Shown here piece by piece: positions 14,556 to 18,405 of a stretch of DNA of 60,891 nt (positions are counted from its first letter, which is position 1; each line of letters opens with the position of its first letter). The notes under the pieces were generated by a model that was not told where the DNA came from, made no database searches, and saw nothing but the letters and a program-made list of their open reading frames with translations. Source of the DNA: Methanobrevibacter sp. Its GTDB lineage: Archaea; Methanobacteriota; Methanobacteria; Methanobacteriales; Methanobacteriaceae. The translations under genes were made by a program, and so were the position numbers. The DNA lies in NCBI RefSeq assembly GCF_015062935.1, contig NZ_SUTM01000004.1, positions 96,851 through 157,741 of the forward strand, in the 5' to 3' direction.

Positions 14556-14765
14556 ATGAAACTAGAAGAATTATTGGCACCATGTCCAAAATGCGGTTCA
14601 AAGGACAAAGTAGCTAAAAGAAAATTACTGGACAATCACAGAGCTCATGCAGAAATGGATGCAGTAAAATGTGAAAATTGCGGCTACATTTTCTTTGTAA
14701 ACGACAACATGGACGAAAATGAGAAAAAGAAACTCTTAAATGAATTAAACAAAGTTTACGGTTAA
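14556..14765 (+). CDS. Cys-rich zinc-ribbon-like peptide, candidate radical SAM substrate
   Basis: A 69-residue protein beginning MKLEELLAPCPKCGSKDK with a second pair, CENCGY, near residue 46, giving the CPxCG...CxxCG pattern of a zinc ribbon, followed by a charged helical tail. Its stop is one base from the ATG of the radical SAM/SPASM enzyme, so the two are almost certainly co-translated. Haft-type annotations describe Cys-rich peptides in methanogens paired with a dedicated peptide-modifying radical SAM enzyme (TIGR04165 with TIGR04083, as I recall); this pair resembles that arrangement, but I cannot confirm model membership. It could simply be a zinc-binding protein. The promoter looks good (aaaattatatac, about 14512-14523) with an AAGGTGA Shine-Dalgarno. 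Confidence 0.75.
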   Translation: MKLEELLAPCPKCGSKDKVAKRKLLDNHRAHAEMDAVKCENCGYIFFVNDNMDENEKKKLLNELNKVYG

Positions 14766-14766
14766 A

Positions 14767-15894
14767 ATGACATTTCATGTAATGATTATTCCAACATTAA
14801 ACTGTCCATCAAATTGCAAATACTGTTGGGGATCTGAAAACAAAAAGGAAATGATGGATTTGGAAATCATAGACCAGATAATCGCATGGTTAGAAGATTT
14901 CAGAGACGATAAGGTCCATTTCACTTTCCACGGCGGTGAACCTCTTCTTGCAGGTTATGATTTTTATAAGCAGGCTTTAGAAAAACTGTCCAAACTGCCC
15001 AATCTTGAAGGATTCTCACTTCAAAGCAATATCTGGCTTTTAACTGATGAGCTGATAGACCTATTCCTTGAGTATAATGTGGTTGTAAGCACAAGTATTG
15101 ACGGGCCAAAGGAAATCAATGATTATCAGAGAGGAGAAGGTTACTTTGACAAGACTATGGAAAAATTCAGACTGGCCAAAAGCAAAGGTCTGATTATTAA
15201 CTTTGTTTTGACAGTAACCGACTATTCAAAGGATTTCTCAGATGAATTATATGATTTCTTTAAAAATGAAAAGATGAATCTTAAAATTCACGCAGCATTG
15301 CCGTCACTTAGGGGAGACAATGCCGACCCGTGGGCACTTGACCAGGAAGAACATGGAAAATTGCTCATAGACTGGCTTGACAAATATCTCTATGATTTGG
15401 ATAAATTTACAGTGATGGATTTGGACCACATCTGTAAAAGTTCACTGAGAAGGAGAGGAACTTTATGCACATTCGCAGACTGCATCGGAACCACATTGGC
15501 AGTGGGATCTGACGGTTCCATATATCCATGCTACCGTTTTGTAGGAATGCCGGAGTACGTTTTGGGCAATGTGGCTGACAATCCGAGTTTTGATGATTTG
15601 AAAACATCTGATGCATGGTCAAAACTTATGGAATTCAGGGACTATGTTGGAGAAAACTGTAAGAAGTGCAGATATGTTAAATACTGTGAAGGAGGATGTC
15701 CTTACAATGCAATTGTAGCATATCAGACACCTCAGGCAGTGGATCCTCAGTGCACTGCATATAAAATGATTTTTGGAGAAGTATCAAAAAGGATGAATAA
15801 GGAATTTGCAAAATCCGCATTCGGAATGGGCGGACCGACTCCTAGAAAAGAGGGTGAGCCGTTCAGCATAATGGATCTTGCAATGAAACCTTGA
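14767..15894 (+). CDS. Radical SAM/SPASM peptide-modifying (CbpB-like) enzyme
   Basis: A 375-residue radical SAM enzyme. The SAM-binding cluster motif CPSNCKYC lies at about residues 13-20 and the SAM contact FHGGEPL at about 57. The C-terminal third is a SPASM domain for auxiliary [4Fe-4S] clusters: a Cys pair in LCTFADC, then IYPCYRF, then CKKCRYVKYCEGGCPYN and a last Cys near residue 330. SPASM proteins of this build act on peptides or as anaerobic sulfatase-maturase-type enzymes. No sulfatase is nearby, while small Cys-rich proteins flank it on both sides, which favours peptide maturation. The chemistry installed is unknown. Confidence 0.85.
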   Translation: MTFHVMIIPTLNCPSNCKYCWGSENKKEMMDLEIIDQIIAWLEDFRDDKVHFTFHGGEPLLAGYDFYKQALEKLSKLPNLEGFSLQSNIWLLTDELIDLFLEYNVVVSTSIDGPKEINDYQRGEGYFDKTMEKFRLAKSKGLIINFVLTVTDYSKDFSDELYDFFKNEKMNLKIHAALPSLRGDNADPWALDQEEHGKLLIDWLDKYLYDLDKFTVMDLDHICKSSLRRRGTLCTFADCIGTTLAVGSDGSIYPCYRFVGMPEYVLGNVADNPSFDDLKTSDAWSKLMEFRDYVGENCKKCRYVKYCEGGCPYNAIVAYQTPQAVDPQCTAYKMIFGEVSKRMNKEFAKSAFGMGGPTPRKEGEPFSIMDLAMKP

Positions 15895-15909
15895 TTTTGA
15901 GTTGATAAT

Positions 15910-16035
15910 ATGATTTGTGATGACTGTGAACATCTGGAGTTAAGAAACAAGTATAAGATTGTATGTAAAGTTCATGACCATCTTCTTTTGGATGTTAAGG
16001 AATGCATGAACTATAAAAAAGCTGAAGATGAATAG
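15910..16035 (+). CDS. Tiny Cys-containing peptide downstream of the radical SAM enzyme
   Basis: A 41-residue frame, MICDDCEHLELRNKYKIV and on, with Cys at 3, 6, 19 and 32 and His at 8, 22 and 24; C-x-x-C plus two further Cys would suit a small metal site or a modified peptide. It starts 15 bases after the radical SAM stop with a weak GTTGAT Shine-Dalgarno at normal spacing, and a hairpin terminator overlaps its stop, so it is the last cistron of the unit. I do not recognise the family. It may be a second substrate, an accessory protein or an unrelated zinc peptide. Confidence 0.65.
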   Translation: MICDDCEHLELRNKYKIVCKVHDHLLLDVKECMNYKKAEDE

Positions 16036-16062
16036 ATTTTTTTCTATTCAACCACTATTTTT
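16029..16062 (+). terminator. Hairpin terminator closing the radical SAM operon
   Basis: The 7-bp stem gaataga/tctattc (16030-16036 with 16043-16049) overlaps the stop of the tiny peptide and is followed by a T-rich run. Confidence 0.6.
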
Positions 16063-16106
16063 TTTTATTAATTTTTCTTTGAAGCAATATTTCTCTAATT
16101 TTTTTC

Positions 16107-16342
16107 AGTAATACCGAGTATTTAAATGAATTCAAAAAAAGTAATAATATTTATATATTATAGTTTATATATTATGAAACAGTAATACTGAGTATTTAAA
16201 TAAACTCAAAAAAAGTAATACTTTTTGGCTGTTGGTACTTACTTGGTAATTTTTTTTTTAAAGGTTTGAAAAATTTGGGATAACCCTTAAAAAATTTTTG
16301 AGTAATACTGGGTATTTAAATAAATTCAAAAAAAGTAATACT
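16107..16342 (+). repeat. Three direct copies of a 40-bp promoter/operator-like repeat
   Basis: Near-identical 40-bp units lie at 16107-16146, 16181-16220 and 16301-16340 (start spacing 74 and 120 bases). Each reads AGTAATACyGrGTATTTAAAT, then rAAyTC, an A-run, and AGTAATA. Each unit holds an inverted repeat AATAC-N3-GTATT, a TATA-like TATTTAAAT and a second AGTAATA half-site. The third ends 14 bases before the metal ATPase start codon. This fits tandem binding sites for a repressor or activator of the metal pump. It fills the roughly 320-base gap upstream of that gene; no coding region is seen in it. Confidence 0.75.
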
Positions 16343-16356
16343 TCGAGGTGTTTAGT

Positions 16357-18405
16357 GTGATAGATGAAATAACTGATTTCCTGTTTGGATTAAAAATGAC
16401 AATTATTTCAGGTATATTTTTATTAATCGCAGTTATTTTTATGATATTTGGAGTAAAAACTCCAGTTTATTTAGACCCTGCATGGGGAACTGTTATAATC
16501 AGTGGTATTCCAATGCTGCTTTTGGCAATGACAAGGCTGATTCGTGAAAAATGGATCTCATCAGCCCTCCTGATTGCAATAGCTATGGTGGCTTCACTTT
16601 TCATAGGTGAGATATTTGCAGCAGGAGAAGTGGCATGGATTATGGCATTAGGAGCCCTTCTCGAAGACTGGACTGTCGAAAGGGCTAAAAAAGGTTTAAG
16701 AAATTTAATTAACTTAACTCCACAAACCGGAAGAAGAATTGTGGACGGTGTAGAAGAGGTTATTCCAGTAGATGAGATAAAATTAGGGGATACCTTAAGA
16801 ATTCTTCCGGGTGAAAGCGTACCTGTCGACGGTGAAATAATAAAAGGTACTTCATCACTTGACCAGTCAATCATGACAGGTGAATCCCTTCCAATCGATA
16901 AGGAAGTGGGCGATGAAGTGTTCTGCGGTACAATGAATATGTATGGTGCAATTGACATTAAGGCAACCAGTTTGGGTGAAAATTCATCACTTCAAAAACT
17001 GATTGATCTTGTAAAAGCCGCAGATGAAAAGCAGGCACCAACCCAAAGGATTGCAGACAAATGGGCAACATGGCTGGTTCCTGTAGCATTAATAATAGCT
17101 ATTGTTGCTTGGCTTGCAACCGGAAATATCGAAAGAGGAGTAACCGTTTTGGTTGTATTCTGCCCATGCGCATTGATACTTGCAACACCGACTGCAATCA
17201 TGGCCGCAATAGGTCAGGCAACAAAATACGGTGTTTTAATCAAATCAGGTGAAGCACTTGAAACTTTGGGAGGACTTAATACTCTAGTATTCGATAAGAC
17301 AGGAACCTTGACTTACGGTAATTTAGAAGTTTCTGATGTTATTTCTCTAAAAGATGATTTAACCAATTTGGATTTGCTTAAACTCACAGCATCCTGTGAA
17401 AAATTAAGTGAACACCCATTGGCTAAAGCTATTGTAAATAATGCAAAAGAAGCAGATATCGACATTGAAGAGCCACAGGACTTTAAAATGTATCCCGGTA
17501 AAGGGGTTACATGCAAAAATTCTTATGGCCAGGTATATGCAGGAAACTCCAAATTCCTATCTGAAAATGAAATTGATGTCAAAGTTGACACACAGCTAAA
17601 TAAATTGAAAACTGAAGGTAAAGCTTCAATCATAGTTGCATTAAATGGCGAGGTTGTAGGTTTAATCGGTTTATCTGATGTGATACGTGAGGATTCCAAA
17701 CAGATGATTGACAGTCTGCATGAGATTGGAACCGAAACAGTACTGCTCACTGGAGATAACACAGAAACTGCTAATTACTTTGCATCACAGGTTGGAATTG
17801 GCAAAGTTTATGGAAATTTACTCCCTGAAGAGAAACTTTCATGGATTGAAAAATTCAAGTCCGAAGGCAAAAAGGTATGTATGATTGGAGATGGAGTAAA
17901 TGACGCACCGGCACTTAAGACAGCAAATGTAAGTGTGGCAATGGGATCTGTTGGAAGTGATGTGGCTATCGAAGCTGCAGACATTGCACTTTTAGGTGAC
18001 GACATCGGAAAAATCCCCTATCTTAAAAAACTTTCAAATTCCACATTATTCACTATCAAGGCAAACATTGCAATTTCAATGACAATCAATGCAGTAGCTA
18101 TTGTATGTTCCGTATTGGGACTTTTAAATCCTGTAACAGGAGCTATTGTCCACAATGCAGGTTCATGTCTGGTAGTTTTAAATGCAGCATTGCTTTATGA
18201 CAGGCACTTTGACGATTCAATCAAAAAAATCGACACCCAGAATACCGAACACTCACACTATCATTACCACAATGACGGTGAGCACACTCACTCCCATGAA
18301 GGTGTTGAAATTCTTGACGAAATCGAAACCGAAAATGGAATAAAGCATATACATGTGCATAAACATTCATTAAATAGACAAAGTTTTGAACCACATCACA
18401 ACTAA
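16357..18405 (+). CDS. Heavy-metal-transporting P1B-type ATPase
   Basis: Membrane pump that exports a transition metal using ATP; 682 residues. The start is GTG at 16357, with GAGGTG ending 6 bases upstream; an in-frame GTG at 16348 overlaps that site. N-terminal helices lead to the actuator motif TGES (about residue 178), the metal-site motif CPC (about 269), the phosphorylation site DKTGT (from 313), SEHPLA (the HP motif) and GDGVNDAP (from about 511). There is no N-terminal metal-binding domain. The C-terminus is a His-rich cytoplasmic tail (HSHYHYH, HTHSH, HIHVHKH). The last helix has HNAGSCLVVLNA, unlike classical Cu pumps, so Zn, Co, Ni or Mn remain possible. Regulation probably acts through the three upstream repeats. 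Confidence 0.9.
   Translation: MIDEITDFLFGLKMTIISGIFLLIAVIFMIFGVKTPVYLDPAWGTVIISGIPMLLLAMTRLIREKWISSALLIAIAMVASLFIGEIFAAGEVAWIMALGALLEDWTVERAKKGLRNLINLTPQTGRRIVDGVEEVIPVDEIKLGDTLRILPGESVPVDGEIIKGTSSLDQSIMTGESLPIDKEVGDEVFCGTMNMYGAIDIKATSLGENSSLQKLIDLVKAADEKQAPTQRIADKWATWLVPVALIIAIVAWLATGNIERGVTVLVVFCPCALILATPTAIMAAIGQATKYGVLIKSGEALETLGGLNTLVFDKTGTLTYGNLEVSDVISLKDDLTNLDLLKLTASCEKLSEHPLAKAIVNNAKEADIDIEEPQDFKMYPGKGVTCKNSYGQVYAGNSKFLSENEIDVKVDTQLNKLKTEGKASIIVALNGEVVGLIGLSDVIREDSKQMIDSLHEIGTETVLLTGDNTETANYFASQVGIGKVYGNLLPEEKLSWIEKFKSEGKKVCMIGDGVNDAPALKTANVSVAMGSVGSDVAIEAADIALLGDDIGKIPYLKKLSNSTLFTIKANIAISMTINAVAIVCSVLGLLNPVTGAIVHNAGSCLVVLNAALLYDRHFDDSIKKIDTQNTEHSHYHYHNDGEHTHSHEGVEILDEIETENGIKHIHVHKHSLNRQSFEPHHN

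Follow-up and report, generated by a model that had tools for sequence, protein, structure and literature searches.

Genes at the locus

We analyzed a stretch of 60,891 nucleotides of DNA (the window), whose nearest named relatives are Methanobrevibacter genomes, chiefly from the rumen and gut. Three open reading frames lie in tandem in the window and are followed by a putative transcription end:

14556..14765, plus strand: small protein of 69 amino acids matching TIGR04165, zinc-ribbon-like (CPxCG...CxxCG), with a C-terminal helix
14767..15894, plus strand: radical SAM/SPASM enzyme of 375 amino acids matching TIGR04083, the proposed McrA aspartate dehydrogenase (didehydroaspartate-forming)
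15910..16035, plus strand: mini-protein of 41 amino acids with four cysteines, a clade-restricted accessory gene recognized by its conservation and dN/dS
16029..16066, plus strand: weak hairpin (16029-16050) and T-runs, putative transcription end (hairpin z of -1.25, and sequence)

The positions, lengths and gaps of the three open reading frames were as described in an initial annotation of this DNA, as were the cysteines of the two small proteins (residues 10, 13, 39 and 42 of the 69-residue protein and residues 3, 6, 19 and 32 of the 41-residue protein). The gap between the first two open reading frames is 1 nt and that between the second and third is 15 nt. The reading of the three genes as an operon was borne out. 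The terminator proposed behind the third gene is an 8-bp hairpin followed by T-runs; the hairpin is weak and was not clearly better than shuffled sequence. T-rich tracts are sufficient for termination of transcription in archaea.

The locus is next to genes for an aldo/keto reductase and a heavy-metal P-type ATPase. We found no protease or exporter among the neighboring genes, and the initial annotation was likely right in suggesting an intracellular role for the product. Three direct repeats of 47 nt (81-100% identical) lie at 16106-16346, between the gene for the 41-residue protein and the ATPase gene (16348-18405). They may serve the ATPase gene as operator or promoter elements.

The enzyme belongs to TIGR04083

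We found that the enzyme matched TIGR04083 over its full length (residues 4-373), with a score of 596.4 bits and a cut-off of 300, as the initial annotation had anticipated. That annotation had also likened the first two genes to a pairing of a Cys-rich peptide with a CbpB-type enzyme. The assignment of the two proteins to TIGR04165 and TIGR04083 was correct, but the enzyme is not of the CbpB type, because its score against TIGR04163 (98.3 bits) was far below the cut-off of 375. A literature search by the accession TIGR04083 found no paper, and among the papers listed in a search with TIGR04165 as well, none contained the term.

In an alignment of the family, the cysteines of the radical SAM motif CX3CX2C (C13, C17 and C20) and eight SPASM cysteines (C234, C239, C255, C298, C301, C307, C311 and C329) were invariant. 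Searches with NCBIfam and Pfam profiles found no cobalamin (B12) domain in the enzyme. The closest solved structure was that of the anaerobic sulfatase-maturating enzyme AnSME (PDB 4k36-4k39; E 8e-39, residues 10-337). Asp277 of AnSME, after the third SPASM cysteine, corresponds to Tyr256 in the enzyme of the window, and all 16 TIGR04083 sequences compared had YPCY in place of the YPCD of AnSME. We rejected an assignment as a sulfatase maturase, given this replaced aspartate and a score against TIGR03942 of 178.1 bits (cut-off 349.45).

The 69-residue protein is paired with the enzyme in Methanobacteria

The 69-residue protein matched the full TIGR04165 profile (1-50) at 89.8 bits, above the cut-off of 60, in agreement with the family named in the initial annotation. 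Residues E4, C10, P11, C13, G14, D17, K18, R22, D26, C39, C42 and F46 were invariant across Methanobacteriales. Conservation extended over the whole zinc-ribbon-like domain of 50 residues, which has no variable core, and the median dN/dS was 0.07. An AlphaFold2 model (mean pLDDT 66) had beta strands and a helix at residues 54-68. A fold search with this model found nothing significant; the best matches included the zinc ribbons of RNA polymerase subunits, TFIIB and TFIIS. As modeled, the protein resembles a zinc ribbon followed by a C-terminal helix.

TIGR04165 and TIGR04083 occurred together in 134 of 152 Methanobacteria genomes, and 14 had neither. The remaining four were discordant: two lacked the enzyme and were assemblies estimated at 63-64% complete, and two (G035, at a contig end, and G065) had a partial enzyme gene. 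The initial annotation had held that its reading would fail if the small proteins were widespread without the radical SAM gene, and for TIGR04165 in Methanobacteria we did not find that distribution. The two genes were 1-7 nt apart in the genus of the window and up to about 300 nt apart in other lineages. In genus g26 (for example G133 and G147) both were present and unlinked. Because the genes are adjacent in most of the lineages in which loss occurred, their joint loss there may reflect single deletions. The co-occurrence supports a functional link, short of proof.

We also observed a second copy of TIGR04165 in Methanothermobacter (genus f2), about 5 kb from the first and on the opposite strand (G048 C1:519871-520050, within L214). 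A second TIGR04083 gene was looked for and not found.

The 41-residue protein is a conserved gene of one clade

A profile of the 41-residue protein had 27 strong matches among the 152 genomes of the phylum. All were in the genus of the window, and each was directly behind the enzyme gene. The four cysteines (C3, C6, C19 and C32) were invariant in an alignment of 15 sequences. Among 25 distinct loci, the median dN/dS was 0.12 and pN/pS was 0.18; the median dN/dS of the enzyme was 0.04. Because the frame recurs behind the enzyme and is under purifying selection, it is not a chance open reading frame. A lack of conservation in related genomes had been named as grounds for discarding the initial reading, and the frame proved to be a real gene, conserved in one clade.

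The gene was missing from most genomes and loci that carry the enzyme and was confined to one clade of Methanobrevibacter. The three-gene order, whose conservation across Methanobacteriales had been in question, is conserved only in part of that genus. On the enzyme tree, the presence of the gene required 7 changes, compared to a mean of 21 for shuffled states. This is as expected for one gain and several losses within one clade.

The idea that the third gene is undescribed was supported. No family in NCBIfam or Pfam scored over its cut-off, and there was no significant match in PHROGs or the PDB. We attributed to chance two weak matches, one to DUF7140 (E 0.03) and one to a family of phage DNA polymerases (E 0.014). 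An AlphaFold2 model (pLDDT 56) was too poor for use. The protein could bind metal through its four cysteines.

In Methanosarcinia the enzyme gene is often next to mcr

We found TIGR04083 within 5 kb of mcrA, which encodes a subunit of methyl-coenzyme M reductase (MCR), in 16 of the 30 Methanosarcinia genomes that had both genes on one contig. There were several arrangements:

L124 (Methanolobus vulcani) and L201: mcrC-mcrG-mcrA-TIGR04083 in tandem
L202: mcrG-mcrA-TIGR04083
L197: mcrG-mcrA-Mmp10-TIGR04083
L198: mcrG-mcrA ... MgmA-Mmp10-TIGR04083
L211: TIGR04083 convergent with mcr
L200 and L209: TIGR04083 5 kb downstream of mcrA

The Mmp10 neighbors in L197 and L198 scored 586-587 bits against TIGR03278 (cut-off 350), and the MgmA neighbor in L198 scored 646 bits against TIGR04014 (cut-off 360). 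Mmp10 and MgmA are the radical SAM methyltransferases of an arginine and a glutamine of McrA (PMC7581889, PMC11796369). Thus, in several lineages of Methanosarcinia the gene is linked to mcr or to genes for known modifiers of MCR. In Methanosarcina, TIGR04083 and mcr were more than 1 Mb apart, and mcr was not beside TIGR04083 in the Methanobacteria examined, this window included. The enzyme gene is repeatedly beside mcrA, twice together with Mmp10 and once also with MgmA, and the enzyme is therefore probably one of MCR maturation. Overall, we consider it very likely that TIGR04083 acts on MCR.

Three further observations concern these loci. Just downstream of TIGR04083 in L201 (4836-5201) is an open reading frame of 121 amino acids that matches the C terminus of McrA, including the GFDLQDQCGATN segment, and looks like a partial duplication of mcrA. 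Three ANME-2d-like loci (L200:2454-5298, L209:5837-8692 and L208:6716-9306) have beside mcrA a radical SAM protein of 718-732 amino acids with B12-type relatives and no named family. A beta-methylhistidine has been reported on McrG of ANME-2d (PMC12413448), and this protein is a possible source of it. L200 and L209 also carry a protein of 81-85 amino acids that resembles a DnaJ zinc finger beside mcrA.

Gene presence and the didehydroaspartate of McrA

The didehydroaspartate status of MCR is listed per structure in Table 1 of PMC9081873. We compared this status to gene content, assigning the species of the genomes by the identity of their McrA to the sequences of the structures. Three of the taxa are modified, and each had an intact enzyme gene. 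In M. marburgensis (G048) McrA and MrtA were identical to the structure sequences. McrA was 100% identical to 1e6y in M. barkeri (G272) and 100% identical to 8gf5 in M. acetivorans (G268), whose enzyme gene lies at C1:4090849-4091973. Three are unmodified. The enzyme was absent from Ca. Ethanoperedens thermophilum (G170; McrA 595/595 to 7b1s) and from a relative of Methanopyrus (G057; McrA close to 1e6v). The third, M. wolfeii (G043; 550/550 for McrA to 5a8k and 554/554 for MrtA to 5a8w), had a nonsense mutation in the enzyme gene, TAC to TAG, at an invariant tyrosine three residues past the last SPASM cysteine.

This mutation removes the last ~38 residues and no cluster ligand. Because the truncated protein keeps all of the cluster cysteines, loss of activity is likely and not certain. 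In the table, M. wolfeii and M. marburgensis differ by didehydroaspartate only (PMC9081873). Among 266 open reading frames of M. marburgensis (400 kb sampled), 15 were apparently broken in M. wolfeii, about 5.6%, an upper bound because some of these are spurious open reading frames or indels. With this base rate, the coincidence in M. wolfeii alone is worth only a roughly 15- to 20-fold update.

In all, gene presence agreed with modification status in 6/6 identified taxa, a small and phylogenetically confounded panel with one possible exception, G188. The McrA of G188 was 98.6% identical to that of a modified ANME-2d (9qqt), and TIGR04083 was not found in the assembly. The mcr region of G188 was complete, and the gene was not at the site where G184 and G186 have it. 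This absence could be a missing contig or loss in binning, or it could be a real counterexample. The MCRs of ANME-2c and ANME-2d carry didehydroaspartate (PMC12413448), and TIGR04083 was present in L127 (ANME-2c) and in ANME-2d-like genomes such as G184 and G186, which may be of other strains than those of the modified enzymes. Four further unmodified taxa of the table (M. shengliensis, M. formicicus, M. thermolithotrophicus and ANME-1) lie outside the panel. With the McrA of M. shengliensis as query, the best match in the expected class was 76%, so its genome was outside the set searched. The sole Methanococcales genome checked, that of M. jannaschii, was used as a control and had no TIGR04083 match at 1e-60.

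We looked for substitution of the target aspartate in genomes without the enzyme and found none. The aspartate was kept in all of the McrA sequences sampled, both modified and unmodified, whatever the gene content. The difference in modification thus lies in the modifying machinery.

At 1e-50 there was no McrA match in the assembly of the window itself (G000), nor in 4 of 5 other genomes of the genus that were searched. A methanogen must have McrA, so this is probably assembly loss. Two other observations concern individual genomes. The TIGR04083 gene of L041 (G047 C1:71714-72834) has an apparent 1-nt deletion, either real or a sequencing error. L143 (G104), from the genus of the window and without the enzyme, has one McrA paralogue with alanine at the usually methylated cysteine (DLQDQAG).

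A proposed reaction and its alternatives

The enzymes that form several unusual active-site residues of MCR are unknown, and that for didehydroaspartate has been described as such (PMC7581889, PMC8070964). Our search of the literature for a later identification found no paper naming one. Based on the results above, TIGR04083 is probably this MCR maturation enzyme, forming didehydroaspartate in McrA, and not a RiPP maturase; we infer its substrate and reaction. The fuller proposal, that TIGR04083 is the missing radical SAM desaturase and is served by TIGR04165 as a dedicated zinc-ribbon partner in Methanobacteria and by the 41-residue Cys4 protein in one clade of Methanobrevibacter, has in our estimate an even chance of being right.

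In the proposed mechanism, SAM would be reductively cleaved at the CX3CX2C cluster to give a 5'-deoxyadenosyl radical. The radical would abstract a hydrogen from the McrA aspartate that lies in the GFYGYDLQDQCG segment (numbered Asp450 in M. marburgensis and Asp470 in M. acetivorans). An electron would then pass to the auxiliary clusters and a proton would be lost, leaving the double bond of didehydroaspartate. We infer every one of these steps from the enzyme family and from chemical bookkeeping. By analogy, the chemistry would fit, in that AnSME, the nearest structure, oxidizes by two electrons and TIGR04083 has no cobalamin domain. The tyrosine at the position of Asp277 of AnSME counts against this reading. 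What the analysis shows in its favor is correlation: the gene content of the genomes, the family and cluster ligands of the enzyme, its linkage to mcr and to genes for MCR modifiers, and the match to published status in six taxa.

It is possible, though rather unlikely, that TIGR04083 acts on MCR in another way, on another subunit, an assembly factor or a cofactor, or by making an undescribed modification. Linkage to mcr, Mmp10 and MgmA would fit any role in MCR and names no residue, few taxa of known status could be compared, and unrecognized modifications of MCR are still turning up (PMC12413448). However, M. wolfeii, with the gene cut, and M. marburgensis, with the gene intact, differ in the table in didehydroaspartate alone. 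In addition, the C-methylations already have known B12-dependent enzymes, and among the listed modifications didehydroaspartate alone is a plain two-electron oxidation that adds no atoms.

The NCBI family names and the initial annotation imply a RiPP-like system in which TIGR04083 acts on the TIGR04165 protein by crosslinking or some other modification, and may act on the 41-residue protein too. We consider this improbable. The 1-nt gap and the near-perfect co-occurrence across Methanobacteria would be accounted for, and many relatives in the superfamily are RiPP maturases. A precursor would, however, be expected wherever the enzyme occurs. Of the Methanosarcinia genomes searched (171), 114 had a TIGR04083 match over its cut-off and none carried TIGR04165, with a TIGR04165 model that matched 136 of 152 Methanobacteria as a positive control. 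Because it is absent from so much of the range of the enzyme, TIGR04165 is a poor candidate for the substrate. In addition, a RiPP system would be expected to have a leader and a variable core, with a protease or exporter nearby; here the whole domain is conserved and the neighbors are the reductase and the ATPase. The 41-residue gene is absent from most of the loci with the enzyme. With TIGR04165 also unlinked in g26 and the enzyme gene next to mcr in Methanosarcinia, the claim of a peptide-maturation system with the small proteins as its substrates was not upheld.

A role in MCR maturation does not explain why TIGR04083 and TIGR04165 are so closely paired in Methanobacteria, and this counts against it. 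Most likely, as a conjecture, the small Cys-rich proteins are metal-binding accessories of the enzyme in Methanobacteria, for example in delivery or chaperoning of the substrate. Our guess is that they present McrA to the enzyme. The data are compatible with the enzyme acting on the small proteins as well.

A shift of function, with the Methanosarcinia orthologues acting on MCR and the Methanobacteria branch recruited with TIGR04165 to another protein, would suit the identity of only about 51% between branches, the restriction of TIGR04165 to Methanobacteria and the lack of mcr linkage seen there, but is very improbable, as M. marburgensis, one of the Methanobacteria, has both didehydroaspartate and an intact gene and M. 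wolfeii has neither.

Significance and comparison with known systems

MCR makes nearly all biological methane. The locus offers a single-gene candidate for one of its missing maturation enzymes, testable in a genetically tractable methanogen. A mass-spectrometric assay on the McrA peptide L461-R491 is already published (PMC7058361). A locus annotated as peptide maturation more likely encodes the missing aspartate-modifying enzyme of McrA and two small Cys-rich helpers. If true, this corrects a family annotation by which many rumen methanogens would seem to make peptide natural products.

AnSME catalyzes a two-electron oxidation of a Cys or Ser side chain and no methylation. AnSME (TIGR03942) and TIGR04083 have in common the CX3CX2C motif and the eight-cysteine SPASM layout, but differ after the SPASM cysteine, where AnSME has its catalytic aspartate and TIGR04083 has Tyr256. 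The cobopeptide maturase CbpB (TIGR04163) is of the same superfamily, but the score of 98 against a cut-off of 375 separates the two. The locus matches both models of the NCBIfam pair of a Cys-rich peptide and a peptide-modifying enzyme (TIGR04165 and TIGR04083) far over their cut-offs. In contrast, the peptide-substrate relation implied by that pair fails in Methanosarcinia, and one clade has the 41-residue gene in addition. Mmp10 (TIGR03278) and MgmA (TIGR04014) are radical SAM enzymes of MCR maturation and are clustered with TIGR04083 in L197 and L198. They are cobalamin-dependent methyltransferases (references in PMC7058361; PMC11796369), whereas TIGR04083, a SPASM enzyme, matches no B12 domain and would desaturate and not methylate.
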